A stretch of 40,077 nucleotides of DNA from Deltaproteobacteria bacterium. Lineage in GTDB: Bacteria > Desulfobacterota > Syntrophia > Syntrophales > Smithellaceae. Positions 29,381 through 30,794 of the stretch are shown here, in pieces (position 1 is the first letter of the stretch; each line of letters begins with the position of its first letter). The stretch covers positions 1 through 40,077 of the forward strand of contig JANYAY010000038.1 in the NCBI GenBank assembly GCA_025361065.1. Direction: 5' to 3'. Made by a program: the position numbers and the translations under genes. The notes under the pieces were generated by a model. It was not told the DNA's origin. It saw nothing but the letters and a program-made list of their open reading frames with translations, and did not search any database.

Positions 29381-29479
29381 TGCATACAGTATTCAGGCCG
29401 AAGTTATGTGAAGCAGAAATAATCAGTGGCCGGCAATTGCCGGTAATTCTTCCGGCAATAAAACATCAGCAAAAACGGA

Positions 29480-29508
29480 TTGACAGGAAATAAAGCTTGT
29501 GCTTTTAT
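29480..29508 (+). promoter_or_regulatory. Strong predicted sigma-70 promoter
   Basis: Perfect TTGACA (29480-29485), exactly 17-bp spacer, TGC extended -10 element and TTTTAT (29503-29508). Expected start is about 29515. It drives the short unit ending at the terminator at 29688. Confidence 0.7.
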
Positions 29509-29538
29509 GGCACCAGTAGAGTAGTAAAAGGAAAGTTG

Positions 29539-29634
29539 ATGAACGTCCTCCCGGATACTAAAAAGACAGTTGGTAAGAAACAGGGGATAAAGCGGTTGGG
29601 GCTACCCATTGCTTTGAGGACGTTCGTTTTGTGA
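29539..29634 (+). CDS. Candidate 31-residue leader peptide or small protein ahead of dapA
   Basis: ATG at 29539 with AAAGGAAA seven bases upstream; the ORF starts MNVLPDTKKTVGKKQGIKR and ends TFVL before TGA. It carries five lysines, two pairs among them. It sits between a strong promoter and an intrinsic terminator. The RNA also folds: GAACGTCCTC (29541-29550) pairs perfectly with GAGGACGTTC (29616-29625), so the region could equally be a structured RNA of about 175 nt with an incidental ORF. I know of no family it matches. Confidence 0.5.
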   Translation: MNVLPDTKKTVGKKQGIKRLGLPIALRTFVL

Positions 29635-29688
29635 TCACCGACATATAGTTTTCTTCAAAGCCATGGGTAAACCCCATGGCTTTTTTTT
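29602..29688 (+). terminator. Intrinsic terminator with possible antiterminator
   Basis: Perfect 11-bp stem AAAGCCATGGG (29657-29667) with CCCATGGCTTT (29673-29683) and eight T from 29681. The upstream segment TACCCATTGCTTTG (29602-29615) matches the complement of CAAAGCCATGGGTA (29656-29669) at 13 of 14 positions and would abolish the terminator. Terminator certain; switching inferred. Confidence 0.8.
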
Positions 29689-29715
29689 GCCCGGAGAGGA
29701 CATTTATCGGGATTA

Positions 29716-29852
29716 TTACCAAATTGCATTCAAAAGATAACGCGGCGGCAAGGAGGAGGCTCCGCAGGCGTATTTTACATACGTTGAGGAAGCCGACGAC
29801 GCAGCTAACAAAGTTAGCTAAAGAATGCGACTTGGTACAACAACGATTCAGC
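29716..29852 (+). repeat. Family C element between terminator and dapA
   Basis: The left end TTACCAAATTGCATTC and right end GAATGCGACTTGGTA are near-perfect inverted repeats. Inside: GGCGGCAAGGAGGAGGC, the palindrome CGTATTTTACATACG, and AGCTAACAAAGTTAGCT near the right end. The dapA ribosome site follows about 10 bases after the element. No ORF. Confidence 0.75.
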
Positions 29853-29876
29853 TAACAGCAACAGTAAGGAGAACCT

Positions 29877-30794
29877 ATGCAAACACAATCCTGGGCCGGA
29901 TGTCATGTGCCCATTATAACCCCATTTAAAGACGATTATTCCATAGACGAGGCGGGACTTCGTCAGCTGGTCAATTATTATATCGAAGACGTGAAGTGCG
30001 ACGGCATTATCCCCTGCGGGACGACGGGGGAATCCCCGACCCTGGATCATGCTGAGCATACCAGGGTCATTAAAATCGTGATCGACGAAGTCGGAGGCCG
30101 TGTGCCGGTGATGGCCGGCACAGGCTCGAACAGCACCAAAGAGGCAATCGAGCTGACCAAACAGGCTGCGGATATGGGCGTTGCGGCAAGCCTGCAAGTC
30201 TGCCCCTATTATAACAGACCTTCACAGGACGGTCTCATGAAACATTTCGCAACGATTGCCGAAGCGACAAAGCTGCCGCTTTTCATCTATAATATTCCCT
30301 CGCGAACAGGAAGGCTCATTGAGGCCAAAACGATGATTGCCCTCTCCAAAATAGACTCTATCATCGGAATGAAAGATGCCTGCGGGGATTTGATGGTCAC
30401 GATGGAGATCATCCGGGCCACCCGGGATAGCGCAAAGAAGTTTTATGTCCTCTGCGGAGAAGATGCTTTAACTTTCCCGATGATGGCTTTAGGCGCCGAC
30501 GGCGGGATATTGGCCGTGTCCCATGTTGTCGGAAAACAATACCGGGAGATGGTTCATCTTTATCTTACCGGGGAAATTAACGCCGCCCGGGAAATTCATT
30601 TTAAGACACTGCCCTTGGTGCAGGCGCTGTTTATCGAAACCAATCCCGTTCCGGTCAAGGAAGCCATGGCGATGATGGGGTTGCCTGCGGGGAAGGTGCG
30701 GCTGCCCCTGGTCCCCTTAAGGCCGGAGAACCGCGAGGTGTTGCACAAGGCTTTGCAGCAGTTCGGTCTGCTTAGCAGTCAGAAACTTTGCTGA
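29877..30794 (+). CDS. dapA: Dihydrodipicolinate synthase family protein (DapA-like)
   Basis: Class I aldolase condensing pyruvate with aspartate semialdehyde in lysine/diaminopimelate synthesis. Schiff-base Lys166 in IGMKDACGD, Tyr112 in PYYNRPS, Arg143 in NIPSRTG and the Thr49-Thr50 pair in GTTGES are the standard DapA set; Arg143 favours DapA over sialate or KDG aldolase relatives. It has 305 residues, slightly longer than normal. AAGGAGA lies five bases before ATG 29877. No dapB neighbour is present. A promoter, short Lys-containing ORF and terminator unit lies about 190 bp upstream. Confidence 0.87.
   Translation: MQTQSWAGCHVPIITPFKDDYSIDEAGLRQLVNYYIEDVKCDGIIPCGTTGESPTLDHAEHTRVIKIVIDEVGGRVPVMAGTGSNSTKEAIELTKQAADMGVAASLQVCPYYNRPSQDGLMKHFATIAEATKLPLFIYNIPSRTGRLIEAKTMIALSKIDSIIGMKDACGDLMVTMEIIRATRDSAKKFYVLCGEDALTFPMMALGADGGILAVSHVVGKQYREMVHLYLTGEINAAREIHFKTLPLVQALFIETNPVPVKEAMAMMGLPAGKVRLPLVPLRPENREVLHKALQQFGLLSSQKLC

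Follow-up and report, generated by a model that had tools for sequence, protein, structure and literature searches.

Immediately upstream of a dapA gene, a contig of a Smithellaceae bacterium (JANYAY010000038.1) carries a promoter, a small ORF and a terminator in close succession, which raises the question of what this compact unit does for the gene behind it. A reading made from the letters of the window alone (the whole 40,077-nt stretch of DNA analyzed here) had offered three answers: a lysine-responsive leader, a new structured RNA or an independent small gene.

The leader unit and the gene behind it

The unit is present where this sequence-only reading had placed it, and the parts it described are found in the letters of the sequence (Table 1). 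The ribosome site sits 3 nt ahead of the leader ATG, the lysine-containing ORF comprises 31 codons plus TGA, and the stem joining the ends of the ORF is perfect. Other parts had been described less exactly. The promoter, called almost ideal, has a perfect -35 element, but its -10 element matches at just four of six positions and the promoter is missing from the list of a consensus scan. The antiterminator, claimed as a 13-of-14 pairing of 29604-29617 with 29655-29668, exists, although the real pairing is longer; GGGG at 29598-29601 can also pair with CCCC at 29672-29675, in the 3' arm of the terminator. That terminator is present, with a T-run to 29688, but is unremarkable by itself (one found vs 0.5 expected). 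Folding of 29515-29690 gives a z-score of -3.2, with 1 of 200 shuffles equally good. The unit can be regarded as real because it is conserved in 15 genomes, which is the decisive evidence. TTGACA lies 56-63 nt upstream of the leader ATG in 13 of these, with a -10 element matching at 2-5 of six positions, and was not found within 90 nt upstream of the ATG in G003 and G014.

Table 1. Features of the leader and of its putative target gene, in window coordinates
Feature	Position	Strand	Basis
Promoter: -35 TTGACA (29480-29485), 17-nt spacer, -10 TTTTAT (29503-29508)	29480-29508	+	Sequence
Ribosome-binding site AGGAAAG	29529-29535	+	Sequence
Leader ORF MNVLPDTKKTVGKKQGIKRLGLPIALRTFVL, then stop	29539-29634	+	Open in 15/15 genomes, 29-32 residues
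Regulatory lysine codons K13 (29575-29577), K14 (29578-29580), K18 (29590-29592)	29575-29592	+	G-K-K-x-x-x-K in 15/15
Stem P1, 29541-29550 with 29616-29625	29541-29625	+	10 bp in window
Hairpin P3, proposed protector hiding the antiterminator arm	29589-29615	+	-11.9 kcal/mol in window
Antiterminator 5' arm GGGGCTACCCATTGCTTTGAGGA	29598-29620	+	Pairs with 29652-29675
Antiterminator 3' arm, overlapping the terminator	29652-29675	+	Pairing
Intrinsic terminator, stem-loop (29657-29683) plus T-run	29657-29688	+	100% of cells paired, 11 sequences
dapA2, 4-hydroxy-tetrahydrodipicolinate synthase paralog, putative controlled gene	29877-30794	+	TIGR00674, 334 bits (cut-off 206)

The downstream product is a clear DapA by its NCBIfam match (Table 1), and the unit does precede a lysine-pathway gene as had been claimed; this gene, however, is a second, solitary dapA, which we call dapA2, and not the housekeeping copy. 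DapA2 of the window is 46.3% identical to the other DapA of its own genome, and each of the 11 leader-bearing genomes of the window's order likewise has another dapA, 44-48% identical, in a compact gene cluster elsewhere. DapA2 retains GTTGES, PYYN and the arginine of PSRTG, which we take to be active-site motifs. Around the presumably catalytic lysine, its sequence is KDACGD, and that of the other DapA is KEASG.

Between the terminator and dapA2, positions 29715-29845 are a dispersed repeat, matched 45 times in the own genome (itself counted), and, though inside the interval first described, are no part of the leader unit. The gap from T-run to dapA is 188 nt in the window vs 64 nt in the near relative G001; it measures 52-65 nt in four of the five relatives measured and 184 nt in the fifth. 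A similar element was seen by eye downstream of a trp-type leader (L054).

Conservation of the leader across genomes

A leader of this family lies ahead of dapA2 in 15 genomes, 11 of the window's order and four of another class. When 99 genomes chosen as relatives (own included) were searched at the DNA level, 29 places were listed: the window, five relatives of the leader, each ahead of dapA, and 23 others. The latter mostly match the terminator core alone (about query 149-188), with L022 and L024 covering 24 bases elsewhere, and where inspected are largely different attenuators or bare terminators. A covariance model of six sequences, searched against 155 genomes of the order, found 11 leaders that score more than 128 bits, followed by a match at 41 bits. 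Eight of the 19 matching genomes, at 32-41 bits, were set aside, holding tryptophan, leucine and other leaders where inspected; opposite-strand matches (L050-L052) reflect palindromic stems. A second model, of 11 sequences, matched nine of 395 genomes of the phylum, of which four were retained, the window and three new leaders from one family of another class (G274, 57 bits; G370, 49.4; G210, 35.8). G210 was retained on its sequence, though unrelated attenuators score 46.4 and 39.9 bits in that search. A third model, built from 14 sequences of relatives, added a fourth other-class leader (G348, 49.8 bits). Among 84,980 species genomes, nine records matched a degenerate pattern whose letters cannot fit G100 or the other class. 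Every match accepted in the leader-model searches adjoins dapA2 on its upstream side. A covariance search had been proposed as a check, with stems or ORF lost in relatives, or a known Rfam family over the region, as grounds for refutation; the ORF and the stems proved conserved, P1 within the order alone, and no Rfam family covers the region.

The gene itself occurs at 74% identity or more in 12 of 154 genomes of the order, own included; in the twelfth (G069), covariance search and upstream inspection found the whole leader missing. Across the 32 rows of a gene tree, one clade (support 100/99) unites the 15 leader-bearing genes with a single leaderless one. The leader label requires two changes on the tree (mean of 10.9 when shuffled, 0 of 500 shuffles as low), which we read as a single gain and a single loss. 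Thirteen other dapA2-like genes from the phylum, at 60-68% identity, lack the leader in the inspected upstream region of up to 420 nt; eleven of them are in the tree (G260 and G314 were left out). Gene order around dapA2 in the 12 order genomes is common to the window and G001 only, yet the leader keeps to the gene. Some gene families recur here and there, among them the one to which the window's tag-like gene belongs (G010) and the one of its enoyl-CoA-hydratase-like gene (G002 and G014). In the tree, genes from different families are intermingled, which suggests that leader and dapA2 travel together. Upstream of one of the dapA2-like genes (G180, locus L137, within 420 nt) we observed a different small ORF beginning MAHIKRGKHNSGKPD and a hairpin formed by AAAGCCACGGG and CCGTGGCTTTTT, possibly another lysine leader.

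Within the ORF, conservation is concentrated around the lysines. Across the 11 leaders of the order, the eight codons 12-19 have one, two and seven variable columns at codon positions 1, 2 and 3, respectively, and their pairwise codon differences are 147 synonymous vs 56 nonsynonymous, a synonymous fraction reached by none of 2000 column shuffles. The corresponding counts in the flanks are 75/312 for codons 2-11 and 29/282 for codons 20-31. Since codons 12-19 vary mostly at third positions whereas the flanks do not, the lysine core is, on this pattern of substitutions, selected as a peptide, and any constraint on the rest acts on the RNA. K13, K14 and K18 each occur as both AAA and AAG among these leaders, K18 being AAA in two. 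The four other-class leaders have 6-7 lysines each in 29-30 residues; three leaders have just three lysines, with arginine pairs at codons 8-9.

The RNA pairings are also conserved. In the alignment of 11 sequences, P1, P3 and the terminator together have 97.9% of cells paired and four pairs changed on both sides, a result equaled by none of 500 shuffles. The 7-bp core of P1 has 94.8% of cells paired; by eye, the stem is not evident in the aligned leaders of the other class. P3 ranges in stability from -7.0 to -11.9 kcal/mol, with 95.5% and 100% of cells paired in its outer and inner helix, and its outer half is weaker in the other class. The terminator includes two pairs changed on both sides and is present in 14 of the 15 leaders, three of the four from the other class among them. 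The exception is G348 (L141, from position 1926), which keeps the ORF (MRVLSQEEGKKSGKKPEYKKLGPPIAFGMP) and has other sequence in place of the 3' arm of the terminator, so that control there has probably been lost or changed. Its leader contig stops inside the gene, and the whole gene used in the tree comes from a second contig and was taken to be the same gene.

For the antiterminator, 91.5% of cells are paired vs at most 65.3% when the arms are slid against each other. Its pairing and covariation are not above those of column shuffles in the 11-sequence alignment; every base of the antiterminator has a second role, in the ORF, P3 or the terminator. The terminator and the antiterminator core are kept in the three other-class leaders that were aligned. 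Antiterminator and terminator are mutually exclusive, the former being a pairing of terminator sequence with the 3' half of the ORF.

Proposed attenuation mechanism and its alternatives

The sequence makes it probable that the leader is a ribosome-mediated transcription attenuator of dapA2 that senses the supply of lysyl-tRNA and is predicted to respond to lysine. The lysine-responsive leader is thus the one of the three earlier options that gains support, from conserved lysine codons under selection, an antiterminator, a terminator and a position always upstream of dapA2; translation, stalling, their timing and the lysine response are what we infer. RNA polymerase would start near 29515, and a ribosome would then translate the 31-codon leader. 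If charged lysyl-tRNA is scarce, the ribosome would stall at K13 or K14, perhaps K18, where it would hinder P3 and leave 29598-29620 free to pair with the emerging 5' arm of the terminator, so that under lysine shortage the antiterminator would win and dapA2 would be transcribed. If lysine is plentiful, the ribosome would proceed; over roughly codons 18-29 it would mask the antiterminator arm, the terminator would form, and transcription would end 188 nt upstream of dapA2. P3, formed behind the ribosome, would then keep the arm hidden.

Folding with the ribosome at defined positions is consistent with much of this scheme. When only the RNA 3' of a ribosome at codons 8-24 was folded, for the 11 leaders of the order and four footprints, codon 13 or 14 in the A site gave an antiterminator probability above 0.5 in all 11 leaders at all four footprints. 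Codons 21-24 (24 being the last tested) gave the terminator in all 11, again at every footprint. With K18 in the A site, the antiterminator formed in 9, 9, 8 and 2 of the 11 at the four footprints. On the basis of these downstream-only folds, a ribosome starved at the paired lysines would lead to read-through and a moving one to termination. In the other class, G210 fits the switch, G274 does so just around codons 17-19, where its K18 and K19 lie, and the fit of G370 is poor.

The equilibrium folds are less uniform. With the ribosome at codons 18-29, the terminator averages 0.98 or more. With no ribosome, the antiterminator exceeds 0.5 in 9 of the 11 leaders; the window is an exception, with the terminator at 0.99. 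Once bases on the two sides of the ribosome may pair, codon 18 yields a mean terminator probability of 0.99, and the window keeps P1, P3 and the terminator at codons 13-16 (antiterminator 0.00-0.01), as do G003 and, in part, G151; the window's own leader thus fits the switch in these models only if pairing across the ribosome is excluded. The sequence-only reading had cautioned that a ribosome at the stop codon would not clearly cover the antiterminator arm. It was right: the arm is then open, and the antiterminator can re-form at equilibrium, with a mean probability of 0.81. The likely remedy, we infer, is P3 forming behind that ribosome. Because equilibrium folding with a stop-codon, absent or bridged ribosome does not fit, the model needs kinetics, in which P1 would not form around a stalled ribosome, the terminator would form during codons 18-29 and P3 would close behind.

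Selection at the codon level also bears on the alternatives. Instead of slow decoding at the lysine codons, sensing could rest on the core G-K-K-(Q/R)-G-(I/V)-K-(R/Q) as a nascent arrest peptide for free lysine or another ligand, which we consider unlikely. Q15, G16 and I/V17 are conserved as amino acids within the order, as residues beside the sensed one would be in a regulatory arrest peptide of the TnaC or SpeFL type, and codon counting alone needs none of them, but the other class has Q/R/P, E and V/F/Y at these positions, leaving G12 and the lysines as the only invariant residues of codons 12-18 across the 15 leaders. Selection on the peptide moreover lies in the middle of the ORF, with change in codons 20-31 mostly nonsynonymous (29 vs 282), a pattern unlike that of peptides that arrest at the stop codon. 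With similarly little likelihood, a lysine-sensing nascent peptide, its G-K-K-Q-G-I-K core arresting or pacing the ribosome, may operate within a self-contained leader-dapA2 cassette that moves horizontally; if so, the cassette would give its host a second, lysine-tuned entry to the diaminopimelate pathway. The earlier option of an independent small gene, encoding a basic 31-residue protein with its own terminator and lying beside dapA2 for an unrelated reason, is the least probable of all. The unit does have its own promoter, ribosome site, ORF and terminator, and the peptide core is under selection. Against this, dapA2 adjoins in 15 of 15 genomes though the surrounding gene order is mostly not common among the order genomes, a strict link that disfavors such a gene; the codons of the ORF also build the antiterminator, and codons 12-19 alone are kept as peptide, the N- and C-terminal thirds not.

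Direct binding of lysine or a related metabolite by a P1 and P3 fold, the form in which a new structured RNA would act as a ligand-binding riboswitch, is very unlikely. The fold is stable by its z-score, and P1, P3 and the terminator covary above shuffles, but codon-level selection runs through the supposed aptamer and disfavors this option, P1 is not evident in the other class, and neither an Rfam match nor a LYS riboswitch was found. No Rfam family matched anywhere in the window at the gathering score, a T-box leader included (its model presumably belongs to the library searched). A permissive Rfam search of 29400-29900 gave chance-level matches to TLS-PK6 and MS2. The LYS riboswitch (RF00168) was not found in the own genome or, with stricter filters, in 51 genomes of the family including the own; that search was positive in 4 of 14 control genomes. 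No plasmid match was found.

Relation to other amino-acid leaders

The trp, his, thr, leu and ilv operons are controlled by leader-peptide, ribosome-mediated transcription attenuators, and such classical attenuators generally terminate when untranslated. The proposed lysine-codon attenuator resembles them in its short ORF, its cluster of codons for the end product, an antiterminator over an intrinsic terminator and a biosynthetic gene downstream. It differs in having lysine codons and a dapA paralog, and in that a stop-codon ribosome leaves the arm open, so that a hairpin within the ORF would have to hide it. The lysine (aminoadipate) genes of Thermus thermophilus were reportedly found, about 2005, to be under leader-peptide transcription attenuation. 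That system reportedly resembles the proposed dapA2 attenuator in subjecting lysine biosynthesis to a leader peptide that acts by attenuation, but it belongs to another phylum and another lysine pathway. We found no trace of that report in the literature searched, and a term search of PMC3356886 gave no match.

Lysine genes of other bacteria are also controlled by RNA through the LYS (L-box) riboswitch, RF00168, and PMC1262725 assigns the L-box to lysine and attenuators to histidine, threonine and phenylalanine, in other species. The dapA2 leader differs from this riboswitch in having an ORF, predicted to be translated, in place of an aptamer. Among the matches listed in a literature without most subscription journals, there was no description of a lysine leader-peptide attenuator, nor of any lysine leader peptide before dapA. 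Leader-peptide attenuation is thus a known kind of control, and the lysine/dapA family seems undescribed.

Several other leaders came to light in these searches. The window has at 2271-2416 an isoleucine-rich small ORF, MKTITIRPIIISNIIISFPIGGLVVE followed by a stop, and then, by eye, a GC-rich hairpin and T-run; this is likely another attenuator by its sequence. The ORF that starts at 2580, downstream of it, is probably the cimA of the sequence-only reading. Leaders with TGG runs and a CCATGGG...CCCATGG core occur near 1480-1660 of L043, L044, L047, L048 and L054, in several families of the order, ahead of genes that we take to be trpB-like. These tryptophan-codon leaders share the terminator core and the layout with the dapA2 leader and differ from it in their TGG codon runs, ORF and antiterminator arm. 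Leucine-rich leaders lie at L042 (1501-1644), L046 (1507-1673) and L053 (near 1500-1660); one starts with MNELLTLLGLTLLGL and precedes a presumably leuA-like gene, and the others, including that of L046, which contains RPSPVVF, precede genes that we assume to be 2-oxoacid:ferredoxin oxidoreductase-like. Elsewhere in the phylum, units of leader or terminator type whose core is CCATGGG or resembles it, some of them containing Trp or Phe/Tyr codons, are found near 1480-1660 of L119, L121, L124 and L125, ahead of what we take to be DAHP-synthase-like, aminotransferase-like and oxidoreductase-like genes.

RNA control of lysine genes is usually credited to the LYS riboswitch. The organisms considered here, mostly metagenome-assembled anaerobes, appear to control a second dapA gene through a lysine-codon attenuator, and the window's order holds further amino-acid leaders with a common terminator core. 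The 15 leaders would form a test series for an attenuator in which a hairpin behind the ribosome, and not a ribosome at the stop codon, hides the antiterminator arm. Leader and second dapA seem to have been transferred jointly across families.
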